Shown: piece after piece, positions 2,984 through 11,121 of the stretch | Numbering within the stretch: the stretch's first letter is position 1 | Layout: the number at the start of each line of letters is the position of its first letter | From: Pseudomonadota bacterium | Lineage (GTDB): Bacteria; Bdellovibrionota_C; UBA2361; OMIW01 | Length of the DNA: 11,275 nucleotides | Direction: 5' to 3' | Assembly: GCA_900299205.1 (NCBI GenBank) | Contig: OMIW01000084.1 | Location: forward strand, 1-11,275 | Notes under the pieces: model-generated | Database searches by the model: none | What the model saw: only the letters and a program-made list of their open reading frames with translations | What the model was told of the DNA's origin: nothing | Position numbers and translations under genes: made by a program

Positions 2984-3652
2984 ATGATTGGCAGGATCAG
3001 AGAGATTCAGCAGAGGGCGTTACGCGCTGTTACTGAGCTGTCTAGGGGGCGGATCGTGGCCTTTCTCGCTATCGTCATTCTCTCGGCATGGTCGCTCTCT
3101 GTGGAAGCTCAAGGTAAAGAGGTTTTTGGATATGTCGAGCGCGTTCAGATTCGTGAGGCCGATTTCCCGATGCTCGCCAAGCTTGATACGGGCGCGGATA
3201 CCTCATCGATACATGGCCGTCACGTTAAGGAGTACCAGAAAGAGGGAGTGCCGTGGGTTCACTTCGAGATCAGGAACTTTCAGGGCAAGGTGAGTGAGAT
3301 CGAAGCACCGGTGGTGAGAGTTGCCGAGATTAAGCGTCATAGTGGGCCAGCTCAGCGGCGGGTAGTTATTAAGTTGGGGCTGTGTCTCGGTGATATGTTT
3401 CAGGAGGAATATGTAAGCATCGTTGATCGCTCCCGCTTCGAATACCAGTTTCTTCTCGGAAGGTCATTCCTCGCTGGTAATGCTATCGTTGATCCATCAG
3501 CCATGTTTACCTCTGCTCCGAGCTGCAAGCATTTCGTAAAGTCTCCACCTCCTGAGGAACCAAGTCCGTCTCCCACGGTTCCCTCTGCTGAACGTGATAT
3601 TAAGGAAAAGGGAGAGAAACTTGAAGATTCTGATAAAAAAGGATCCCCTTGA
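2984..3652 (+). CDS. Exported retropepsin-like 'ATP-dependent zinc protease' (RimB/PF05618 type)
   Basis: The family carries a retropepsin-like fold despite its 'zinc protease' name. It is usually found beside RimK-like ligases and is thought to cleave the peptide or amino-acid tags they make. Here residues 24-42 form a signal peptide or anchor with a likely cleavage after VEA (42). The catalytic motif LDTGADTSS is at 67-75, with candidate nucleophile Asp68, and the second conserved motif FLLGRSFL is at 157-163, typical of aspartic-protease folds. Residues 186-222 are a Pro/Ser then Lys/Glu-rich tail with no fold visible, longer than the usual end of the family. The start is supported by GAGGAGG ten bases upstream. 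It is the first gene of the three-gene cluster, 90 bp ahead of the transglutaminase/7-TM gene. Its export puts its site of action in the periplasm. Family assignment is firm; the substrate is unknown. Confidence 0.85.
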   Translation: MIGRIREIQQRALRAVTELSRGRIVAFLAIVILSAWSLSVEAQGKEVFGYVERVQIREADFPMLAKLDTGADTSSIHGRHVKEYQKEGVPWVHFEIRNFQGKVSEIEAPVVRVAEIKRHSGPAQRRVVIKLGLCLGDMFQEEYVSIVDRSRFEYQFLLGRSFLAGNAIVDPSAMFTSAPSCKHFVKSPPPEEPSPSPTVPSAERDIKEKGEKLEDSDKKGSP

Positions 3653-3742
3653 GAGAAATGGTGCGTGCCTTTTACGGGTCTAAAAATGTCCTCGTGCTCT
3701 GAAGCTTGCCACTCCGTGATCGTGTCTCAATGGTGATGGTTC

Positions 3743-5275
3743 ATGAGTAGCTCGAAACTATTATCAGTGACGCTTGTCGTTTCTCTGCTCATTGCGGTAG
3801 CAGTCAGCCTTGTTGGCTACAAGGTATTTGTGCTTGAGTTCCCGATAGCACCTGACTCTTCGTCCCGTTATTTTCTGATTGAGGCGCATCTCTCCTTTGA
3901 AGGGGTCGGTAAACCGACCAAGGCGTCCCTCTTCTTGCCGCGGACATCTTCCCGATTTCTCCTCAGCGACGAGAGTTTTGTCTCACGCGGATATGGGTTA
4001 ACAACTTCTGAGCGGGGAGAGAATCGGGTCGCTGAATGGACCACTCGCCGAGCGACGGGGACCCAGGGACTTTACTATCGGGCATTAGTGCTTGTGCGGC
4101 CGGAGGGGCATCTTGCAAAGCCGAAGGATAGAGGTGGAGAGATTGCGGTCGCTCCGGTAGAAGGTCCAGAGCGCGAGGTGATTCTCTCGATTCTTGCGGA
4201 TGGGCGACAACGGTCTGCTGATGCGAAGTCGTTGGTACAGGCGATAATATCCATCGTCAACGAGCGGGCTTCTGCCGGTCATGCAAAGCCACTGATAAGA
4301 AAGGGCGCGAATAACACCGAGCGAATACGGGCAGTCGTGGCGATTCTTCGGGAGGCAAATGTTCCTGCTCGTGTTGTCCGGGGGATCATAATTGCTGGGG
4401 CCCAGGGAAGAGCAGAACCCACGAGCCGTATCCACGTCCAGACAGAAGACGGGTGGCACATAGTGGATGCCGACGGACAATTTTATGATGACTCGATAGA
4501 TTTCCTCCCCTGGTGGTTTGGCTCCGACAATCTCGTATCCGCTCAGGGTGCGCGGGGGATGCGGGTATCGGTATCCTATCGGCAGACAGAAGAAGAGGCG
4601 GTTGATACTGTGCTCAGGGGAAATCAGACAGAAACCTCGGCCCTCGTACGATTCTCTTTGCTCAGGCTACCCCTCGAGGCTCAGTCTATCTTTCGAGTCC
4701 TCCTGCTTGTGCCATTCGGCGCGTTGCTGATCGTGATTCTCCGAAATATCGTTGGCATAAAATTACCGGGTACCTTTATGCCTGTGCTGCTTGCGCTCGC
4801 TTTTCGGGGGACATCTCTTGGGTGGGGGATTCTTATCTTCTCGGTCTTGACCGCCATCGGTTTATTCGCGCGCTCTGGTTTGGAGCGGCTCCGTCTTCTT
4901 CTCCTCCCTCGAGTAGGGGGCGTGTTGACGATAGTAGTCCTTCTGATGGTTGTTATTTCGATGGTTGCGAATGAGTTGGGTCTGGAGGTCGCAATCTCTG
5001 TCGCGCTCTTCCCCATGGTCGTAATCACCATGATGATAGAGCGAACCGCAATTATGTGGGAGGAATTGGGTCCAAAAGATGCGCTCCGTCAATGGATAAA
5101 CGGAACCCTCGGTGCGATTGCAGTGTACTATGTTATTACACCAGCTCCCCTCGGCTACTTTTTATTGCTATACCCCGAGGTTCTGCTGATCGTGCTAGCG
5201 GCGATGATAGTGCTCGGTCGATATACTGGCTACCGATTGAGTGAAATTCGCCGTTTTAAGGATGTCGCACGATGA
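3743..5275 (+). CDS. Inactive transglutaminase-like domain fused to a 7-TM domain
   Basis: This 510-residue membrane protein matches the inactive transglutaminase plus 7TM_transglut architecture (PF14400/PF14402). Residues 5-30 form an N-terminal TM helix; 31-310 are a large extracytoplasmic domain; 318-495 contain about seven TM helices (about 318-336, 341-356, 360-377, 391-409, 413-431, 455-470, 472-493). The transglutaminase core is recognisable at 185-245 (ERIRAVVAILREANVPARVV, then SRIHVQTEDGWHIVDADGQF). His231 and Asp242 of the triad are kept, but the Cys expected near residues 189-195 is absent, so the domain should bind peptide or amide groups rather than catalyse transfer. An in-frame TGA just upstream rules out a longer start; the ribosome site is weak. 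It overlaps the ligase gene by ATGA, implying translational coupling. It probably presents or positions a substrate across the inner membrane for the ligase and the periplasmic protease. Confidence 0.85.
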   Translation: MSSSKLLSVTLVVSLLIAVAVSLVGYKVFVLEFPIAPDSSSRYFLIEAHLSFEGVGKPTKASLFLPRTSSRFLLSDESFVSRGYGLTTSERGENRVAEWTTRRATGTQGLYYRALVLVRPEGHLAKPKDRGGEIAVAPVEGPEREVILSILADGRQRSADAKSLVQAIISIVNERASAGHAKPLIRKGANNTERIRAVVAILREANVPARVVRGIIIAGAQGRAEPTSRIHVQTEDGWHIVDADGQFYDDSIDFLPWWFGSDNLVSAQGARGMRVSVSYRQTEEEAVDTVLRGNQTETSALVRFSLLRLPLEAQSIFRVLLLVPFGALLIVILRNIVGIKLPGTFMPVLLALAFRGTSLGWGILIFSVLTAIGLFARSGLERLRLLLLPRVGGVLTIVVLLMVVISMVANELGLEVAISVALFPMVVITMMIERTAIMWEELGPKDALRQWINGTLGAIAVYYVITPAPLGYFLLLYPEVLLIVLAAMIVLGRYTGYRLSEIRRFKDVAR

Positions 5276-6255
5276 ATACTCTGACGAGCGGCATCGTGAG
5301 GAGTGGTGGCTTTGCCATGCTCAAGGCAGCAGGCGTTCTCGGTATGAATCGGCGCAATCTCGATTATATCGGTAGGTGGAATCCCCGAGAGTCTTTCCCC
5401 TTCGTTGATGACAAATTACTGACCAAGCAGATAGCAATCACCGCCGGAATCTCCGTTCCTGAACTTTATGGGGTGATTTCGATGTATCATGAGGTTCGCA
5501 CCCTCGATTCGATACTTGGCGATCACCGCGATTTTGCCCTCAAGCCCGCAGGCGGCAGCGGCGGAGAGGGGATAATCATTATTGAGAGTCGGCAAAAAGA
5601 ACGATTCAGAAAACCAAACGGGACAATCGTCCGTCGCGCTGAGTTAGAGGATCACATAGCGGAGATTTTGGGAGGGGTGTACAGCCTCGGAGGGCAGCCC
5701 GATAAGGTGATCTTTGAATATCGGGTGAAATTTGACCCGATATTCGACCCAATCAGTTATCTGGGGGTCCCCGATATCAGGATAATAGTATTTCTCGGAA
5801 TTCCGGTGATGGCGATGGTTCGGTTGCCGACCCGTCAATCGGATGGAAAGGCGAACCTTCACAAGGGTGCGGTGGGGGCCGGTATCGATATGCAGAGCGG
5901 TTGTACGCTCGGTGGGGTATGTCAGAACATCGCAACTGATGAGCACCCCGACACAGGAAACCCGGTCGCGGGGGTACAGATTCCGAATTGGGAGCAGCTT
6001 CTCACGATAGCATCGCGGTGTTACGAAATGACGAAGCTCGGGTATCTCGGGGTTGATATTGTCCTTGATCGGGACAAAGGTCCGCTCCTTCTCGAGTTGA
6101 ATGCACGGCCTGGCTTGAGTATTCAGATCGCCAACGGAGCAGGGTTAGTCCCTCGGCTAGAGGTAGTTGAGGCGCACCATCCGTCTCTCACAACGGCCGT
6201 TGATCGGGTCGCATTCGCTCGGGAGCGCTTCGGGATCAAGGCCGACTCAATATAA
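5272..6255 (+). CDS. RimK-type ATP-grasp ligase (alpha-L-glutamate ligase-related, TIGR02291 type)
   Basis: ATP-grasp enzymes of this group join an amino acid to a carboxylate through an acyl-phosphate; RimK itself adds glutamate to ribosomal protein S6, but this subgroup has no settled substrate. The 327 residues show the Gly-rich ATP loop KPAGGSGGEG (91-100), the adenine-pocket strand VIFEYRV (146-152), the DIRIIVF strand (168-174), a basic segment ANLHKGAVGAGID (194-206) and the metal-binding LLLELNARPGL (272-282) with Glu275 and Asn277. No signal peptide or TM segment is visible, so it acts in the cytoplasm. The start overlaps the stop of the 7-TM gene by ATGA. The neighbours (7-TM inactive transglutaminase and exported protease) suggest an envelope-linked ligation/cleavage cycle. 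Downstream the gene faces the gspK-like pair; no strong plus-strand terminator was found. Confidence 0.87.
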   Translation: MNTLTSGIVRSGGFAMLKAAGVLGMNRRNLDYIGRWNPRESFPFVDDKLLTKQIAITAGISVPELYGVISMYHEVRTLDSILGDHRDFALKPAGGSGGEGIIIIESRQKERFRKPNGTIVRRAELEDHIAEILGGVYSLGGQPDKVIFEYRVKFDPIFDPISYLGVPDIRIIVFLGIPVMAMVRLPTRQSDGKANLHKGAVGAGIDMQSGCTLGGVCQNIATDEHPDTGNPVAGVQIPNWEQLLTIASRCYEMTKLGYLGVDIVLDRDKGPLLLELNARPGLSIQIANGAGLVPRLEVVEAHHPSLTTAVDRVAFARERFGIKADSI

Positions 6256-10515: not shown

Positions 10516-11121
10516 TCACAAATCTTCAGTCCTAAATTCGCTATAGCCCTCGTAGAAATAACTCACATCAATGCCTTTCATAAAAATCTCGCGGTCATTG
10601 ATTTTATCCGTTAAGGCAGCAATCAGGAGCTGCTTGATTTCAATATCCTTGACGACACTTCGCTCCATGGCAGAAAGATAGGCGTCTTTGTCGATCAGGT
10701 TCCAATCGACTACTTTTTCGATTCCCTTCTTCAAAAGTATATCGAGCCAGATCCGGGTGGTGCGACCATTTCCTTCACGGAAGGGGTGAGCGATGTTCAT
10801 CTCAACATATTTTTCGACAATCTGATTGAAGTTGTTCTGAGACATTCCATCGATATATGCCAACGATTGCTCGAGATACATCAATGGTGCAAATCGGAAA
10901 TCGCCCTTAGCGATATTCACCTCACGAATTTTGCCCGCAAGGTCATAGATATCTTGGAACAATATCTGATGAATTTTTGCTAATCCCGCAAACGTCCCCA
11001 CCTCAATCGTATCAATCTCACCGCTCTCAAAAAGCTGCTTAGCCCTCTGCTTACTGATTTTCTCCTCAGCTCGGGCAAGCTCAACCTGGTTGGTGATATT
11101 TAGTTTGTTTGGTAACGTCAT
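10516..11121 (-). CDS. fic: Fic-domain protein AMP-transferase, class III-like (C-terminal inhibitory helix)
   Basis: Fic enzymes transfer AMP (or sometimes other groups) from a nucleotide to a Tyr, Ser or Thr of a target protein. The 201 residues include the complete active-site motif HPFREGNGRTTR (112-123), fitting HxFx(D/E)GNGRxxR, with catalytic His112, metal-binding Glu116 and phosphate-binding Asn118 and Arg120/Arg123. A flap-like segment lies around 65-80. At the C-terminus SYFYEG (187-192) matches the (S/T)xxxE(G/N) inhibitory motif, with Ser187 and Glu191; its place at the end marks class III, as in the Neisseria meningitidis Fic protein, where the enzyme inhibits itself. No antitoxin gene of the class I type is seen beside it. 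The gene is more AT-rich than the rest of the window, so recent acquisition is plausible. GGAGG (11125-11129) lies three bases before the ATG, inside a tandem repeat. Confidence 0.9.
   Translation of the reverse strand: MTLPNKLNITNQVELARAEEKISKQRAKQLFESGEIDTIEVGTFAGLAKIHQILFQDIYDLAGKIREVNIAKGDFRFAPLMYLEQSLAYIDGMSQNNFNQIVEKYVEMNIAHPFREGNGRTTRIWLDILLKKGIEKVVDWNLIDKDAYLSAMERSVVKDIEIKQLLIAALTDKINDREIFMKGIDVSYFYEGYSEFRTEDL

Follow-up and report, generated by a model that had tools for sequence, protein, structure and literature searches.

The bacterial gene set that joins a retropepsin-like protease, a seven-helix membrane protein bearing an inactive transglutaminase and an ATP-grasp ligase was probably first described by Iyer et al. 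in 2009. The version studied experimentally is that of Pseudomonas aeruginosa (PA1768-PA1767-PA1766), named rloABC in 2025, where three secreted retropepsins are redundant, the triple mutant does not grow on low-salt medium, and loss of the proteases is rescued by deletion of either rloB or rloC (PMC12239564). RloA cuts poly-glutamate runs of at least eight residues in vitro, its residues R114 and R137 are important both in vitro and in vivo, and low-osmolarity tolerance, biofilm and cell shape are all under the control of the operon (PMC12239564). Most organisms with RloABC were reported to have RimB-RimK as well (PMC12239564), and RloB was reported to be 96% proteobacterial. RimK/RimB, with the hybrid RimBK, likewise pairs an ATP-grasp glutamate ligase with a retropepsin that cleaves poly-glutamate: RimK makes poly-alpha-glutamate and RimB cleaves it (PMC11957791). 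It differs from the rlo system in that RimB is cytoplasmic, there is no RloB, and the substrate is ribosomal protein S6. Here we describe an rlo-type cluster at positions 2984 to 6255 (forward strand) of a window of 11,275 nucleotides, meaning the whole stretch of DNA that was analysed, contig OMIW01000084.1 of a Pseudomonadota assembly (GCA_900299205.1). In P. aeruginosa the operon has effects on survival in low salt, on biofilm and on tolerance of antibiotics; a version with one protease is a simpler system to test, and further interest lies in variant loci that point to the substrate.

Results and Discussion

The window cluster is a single-protease rloABC operon, of the rlo type already known from P. 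aeruginosa, and it is ordinary except for its lone protease and its host. We put at roughly 0.7 the probability of the overall model, in which this operon makes and trims glutamate chains. We infer that cytoplasmic RloC would join L-glutamates through alpha links with ATP, the resulting oligomer being free or built on an acceptor, that the membrane domain of RloB would deliver this chain to the inner membrane or carry it over, and that the dead transglutaminase ectodomain of RloB probably holds the chain or the acceptor. The exported, homodimeric retropepsin RloA would then cut any chain that reaches about eight glutamates, and such cutting would limit the anionic chain in the envelope, an effect expected to matter most in low salt. 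Family matches, the kept catalytic Asp and four contact residues, linkage across phyla, the pattern of replacement by MATCAP enzymes and a RimK-MATCAP gene pair next to rloABC in one relative all support this model, and the genetics and biochemistry of P. aeruginosa and the RimK/RimB precedent count for it too. The original prediction, made from the letters of the window, had proposed that the set makes and removes an amino-acid or peptide tag, and the idea of chain-making and chain-removing enzymes is supported. Its remark that substrate and role were not settled is out of date as regards poly-glutamate cleavage by RloA and the role of the operon, both published in 2025, and still holds for the substrate in vivo and the product of RloC.

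All three genes are co-oriented, in the published order of retropepsin, inactive transglutaminase with seven transmembrane helices (7TM) and ATP-grasp ligase. The rloA-type gene (2984..3652, +) encodes an exported retropepsin-like aspartic protease of 222 amino acids with a PF05618 match of 105 bits and 9g58 as best match in the Protein Data Bank (PDB; E 2.4e-19). The rloB-type gene (3743..5275, +) encodes a protein of 510 amino acids in which the inactive transglutaminase is followed by seven membrane helices (PF14400 130 bits, PF14402 270 bits), and the rloC-type gene (5272..6255, +) a protein of 327 amino acids in the alpha-L-glutamate-ligase-like ATP-grasp family (TIGR02291 465 bits, over the cut-off of 314; PF14397 313 bits). 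Open reading frame (ORF) coordinates place 90 bases between rloA and rloB and an overlap of 4 bases, ATGA, between the stop of rloB and the start of rloC (5272..5275, +), with an identical overlap in 30 of the 100 loci read. Both the gene identities and the overlap had been called correctly beforehand, as profile searches with PF05618, PF14400, PF14402 and TIGR02291 all gave matches and the overlap is present in the coordinates. The P. aeruginosa operon is like that of the window in gene order, domains, exported retropepsin, dead transglutaminase with seven-helix domain, ATP-grasp ligase, and catalytic and glutamate-contact residues; it differs in having three proteases where the window has one, and in the window the gap between the first two genes is 90 bases, RimB and RimK are not recognisable, and RloA and RloB score below narrow family cut-offs.

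Compared with published rloABC, the window RloA has an export signal, the DTG motif and the contact residues. The putative signal peptide, read by eye (residues 1-42; 2984..3109, +), has the hydrophobic stretch IVAFLAIVILSAW and a likely cleavage site between VEA and QG, and the catalytic motif D68-T-G-A-D72 (3185..3199, +) aligns to D48 of P. aeruginosa RloA. In the 9g58 alignment, to which an offset of 20 was applied and in which all reported residues then agree in type, K46, D48, R92, R114 and R137 correspond to K66, D68, R112, R126 and R149 of the window protein. Neither the catalytic Asp nor any of the four conserved glutamate contacts has therefore been lost, while an asymmetric contact (K95, here E115) and a backbone contact (R99, here H119) are changed. 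RloC retains the ATP-grasp Lys/Gly loop ALKPAGGSGGEG (from residue 89) and the metal site LELNARPG (from residue 274). Against the curated NCBIfam models, RloA reached 103 bits with RloA3 (cut-off 210) and 99 bits with RloA1 (cut-off 280), RloB reached 370 bits with its own model (cut-off 900), and the RimB model was also matched in the cluster below its narrow cut-off. The RloA and RloB scores place the cluster as an rlo-type operon outside the narrow, name-level models RloA1, RloA2, RloA3 and RloB. An alternative explanation could be that RloC joins a different amino acid, or that its target is a precursor of peptidoglycan or lipid, with the cleavage of poly-glutamate by RloA being incidental. 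This would fit the placement of RloC by Pfam in PF14397, "sugar-transfer associated ATP-grasp", and the fact that the P. aeruginosa phenotypes touch cell shape and cell-wall antibiotics (PMC12239564), but it would not account for the observation that mutation of R114 and R137, both kept in the window protein, abolishes RloA function in vivo (PMC12239564), nor for the exchange of the protease with MATCAP, a poly-glutamate-shortening family, described below, and we regard it as quite unlikely.

RloB was modelled with AlphaFold2 from 20 sequences (mean predicted local distance difference test score, pLDDT, 81). The model and the family profiles give a transglutaminase-fold ectodomain (residues 40-286; 3860..4600, +) fused to the 7TM domain, and a structure search matched the model to 3isr (Z 15.3, root-mean-square deviation 4.0, 225 residues aligned). 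The active-site segment reads R-K-G-A-N-N-T, with G188-A-N-N191 at the position of the Cys. The original prediction of a transglutaminase lacking its Cys is confirmed well beyond the window, in that all of 100 aligned RloB proteins are without a Cys between residues 186 and 196; the usual catalytic His column is likewise unconserved, so that the term "dead transglutaminase" is valid family-wide. In Shewanella vesiculosa a transposon screen connected vesicle production with a gene of the inactive transglutaminase-7TM type (PMC12096838).

The membrane domain of RloB (4673..5218, +), from the model secondary structure and PF14402, consists of helices 311-337, 345-357, 359-381, 387-411, 419-442, 444-465 and 468-492. 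The first six follow the same predicted order as CapC helices 2-20, 29-35, 40-61, 68-88, 96-119 and 121-142 (alignment A3), and hhalign puts a short common motif, G..(F/V)xPxxLAL, in register. Like rlo, PgsBCA/CapBCA combines a ligase, a small membrane protein and a depolymerase, and RloB could accordingly be imagined as an exporter related to PgsC/CapC of poly-gamma-glutamate synthesis, with the product an exported free polymer such as a glutamate osmolyte or capsule-like chain. We consider this doubtful. Several profile-profile alignments, hhalign included, gave probabilities below 1%, the score of 17.0 compares with 13.6 +/- 2.2 for block-shuffled CapC, and at least 5 of 100 shuffles scored above the real value. 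Fold searches with both models returned membrane matches at noise level that differ between the two, NqrD for RloB (Z 7.3) and an Mtr-complex subunit for CapC (Z 6.0), and no PgsC structure for comparison was found in the PDB by sequence. The ligase of PgsBCA/CapBCA, moreover, is not an ATP-grasp enzyme and makes gamma links, and no significant sequence similarity to rlo was found. Kinship of the RloB membrane domain with CapC/PgsC is unproven by these comparisons and is kept only as a lead, for the agreeing helix order. Two long proteins, in each of which a pair of CapC-like domains is joined to a large C-terminal region (L162:5257-7662 and L163:3287-6448), were considered as possible intermediates; their neighbours showed by eye no link to a ligase or protease.

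In the window genome a single PF05618 protein is present, and it is exported. No RimK was found above cut-off (best TIGR00768 match 37 bits, against 143) and no cytoplasmic RimB without signal peptide was recognisable, absences that are unproven in an assembly about 90% complete; this is unlike the published pattern for most RloABC carriers. MATCAP was not found in the window genome either. Among 115 relatives, PF14402 occurred in 20, in every one of which a TIGR02291 match adjoins it, and PF05618 was directly upstream or fused in 18. The two exceptions are a genome in which the locus is cut by a contig end and PF05618 lies on another contig (G005), and one with rloB and rloC and without PF05618, which has MATCAP elsewhere in the genome (G100). 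The order A-B-C was seen in about 90 of the 100 loci read, a figure that pools the script classes ABC, ABCC and ABCa with a frame-overlap artefact, ACB; seven lacked A inside the stretch and one was the ligase-protease fusion described below. The expectation that the set would recur in conserved order thus held, and the three genes were not consistently unlinked across genomes. The best-matching contigs include metagenome-assembled genomes (MAGs) named Dadabacteria, Desulfobacterales, Nitrospirales, SAR324 and Kuenenia, together with many Proteobacteria. In one genome (L009:3227-3607 and L046:4089-4469) the operon ends next to an additional gene for an RloA-like protease, which is convergent with it.

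Variants outside Proteobacteria came from the phylum of G102, one of the relatives, a complete genome of 0.8 Mb in which RloB has no transglutaminase and RloC is fused to a C-terminal retropepsin with DTGA intact. Genomes of this phylum are mostly 0.5-1.4 Mb at high completeness, and ribosomal protein uL30 was absent in 56 of 59, compared with its presence in 13 of 14 controls; small size and loss of uL30 fit the candidate phyla radiation (CPR)/Patescibacteria. PF14402 occurred in 109 of 379 sampled genomes of this phylum, and the rlo system is therefore common in a CPR-like group, a new observation despite the report of 96% proteobacterial occurrence. In the long CPR-like RloB proteins a PKD domain stands where the transglutaminase would be (6 of 6 scanned), the short ones have little beyond the membrane domain, and the ligase directly downstream carries a fused retropepsin-like domain in nearly all the loci that could be read. 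These loci, with PKD-7TM or bare 7TM followed by the ligase-retropepsin fusion, are L102-L131, L164 and L167-L246. The protease is C-terminal in such fusions, whereas in the hybrid RimBK it is N-terminal. In two loci (L198:1-2673 and L217:2219-4783) the fusions, of at least 891 and at least 854 amino acids, extend into a further C-terminal domain, which in L198 resembles a second ATP-grasp by eye.

The membrane domain and the ligase stay together in CPR-like loci despite replacement or absence of the transglutaminase, and they form the constant core; the ectodomain is exchangeable or dispensable, and the hydrolase can be on the cytoplasmic side. This weakens the further suggestion of the original prediction, that the dead transglutaminase links cytoplasmic synthesis to the periplasmic protease, for here there is a PKD or no ectodomain, and protease and cytoplasmic ligase form one polypeptide. 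More likely, the dead transglutaminase is an accessory binding module of the Gram-negative versions and not an essential bridge.

Some CPR-like loci have exchanged the trimming enzyme itself. In one group the fusion runs on into a MATCAP domain (PF08014, E 2e-33 to 5e-57; TIGR02421 QEGLA) with HExxxH intact, and in a second a separate MATCAP gene directly follows the ligase fusion. MATCAP/TMCP proteins are HExxxH metalloproteases unrelated to retropepsins in fold and chemistry, which here substitute for the retropepsin in relatives of the operon; human TMCP1 and TMCP2 trim the poly-glutamate chains of tubulin (PMC10499314). In an alignment at the active site, the retropepsin motif D-[ST]-G was intact in 55 of 55 loci without an operonic MATCAP and in 4 of 35 with one, and in about half of the 35 the catalytic Asp itself was lost; by this pattern, MATCAP eases the selection that acts on the retropepsin. 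A tree built from the ligase domain requires four changes in the MATCAP state, two of them forced by well-supported branches, so that the 35 loci represent a few exchange events. The exchange of retropepsin for MATCAP is independent evidence for a glutamate-chain product and supports poly-glutamate as the substrate class. It also gives a testable function for bacterial QEGLA proteins, and we found no publication joining MATCAP with ATP-grasp in bacteria, within partial coverage of the literature. Tentatively, and at somewhat less than even odds, RloB and RloC may be an old membrane-bound poly-glutamate synthase distributed far beyond Proteobacteria and served by an interchangeable trimming enzyme, whether exported retropepsin, ligase-fused retropepsin, or a MATCAP/QEGLA carboxypeptidase that lets the retropepsin decay. 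If so, one would expect the bacterial QEGLA proteins, as yet uncharacterised, to act as deglutamylases for RimK-type ligases. Genome G003 (L247:4062-6617), from the same order as the window, has a RimK-type ligase gene followed by a MATCAP/QEGLA gene, convergent with rloABC, possibly a RimK deglutamylase pair, and in a Magnetococcales MAG (L248:248-5679) MATCAP and a glutathione-synthetase-like ATP-grasp gene immediately precede rloABC and share its strand.

A further explanation is that RloC and RloB attach a glutamate chain to a specific envelope protein or lipid and RloA removes it, as RimK and RimB do but across a membrane. The precedent of RimK/RimB on RpsF (PMC11957791) is consistent with such tagging, the suppression genetics could reflect toxicity of a tagged acceptor no less than of a free polymer (PMC12239564), and both PKD and transglutaminase ectodomains are plausible as acceptor binders. 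However, no acceptor gene was seen in a shared-core tally that covered A, B and C only, and many small CPR-like genomes retain just the membrane domain, ligase and hydrolase; we give tagging somewhat less than even odds. Several points also weigh against the overall model of a glutamate chain made by RloC, passed by RloB and trimmed by RloA. No product has been identified for any RloC, no transport activity has been shown for RloB, the poly-glutamate activity of RloA is from work in vitro only and periplasmic poly-glutamate is not known. TMCP1/MATCAP1 also removes tyrosine, so that the presence of a MATCAP is no proof of glutamate, and the CPR-like protease is cytoplasmic, in a compartment different from that of the Gram-negative model.

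The genes on either side of the rlo cluster have other functions. Upstream and divergent from rloA is ftsH (817-2658, -), an FtsH-type AAA protease in which the FtsH extracellular domain is matched only weakly, and the convergent downstream neighbour has a weak match to type II secretion system protein K (PF03934, 22.9 bits, under its cut-off). Near the end of the window (10516-11121, -) is a gene for a Fic-domain protein (HPFREGNGRTTR), in a stretch with lower G+C than the adjoining meaB-type GTPase gene.

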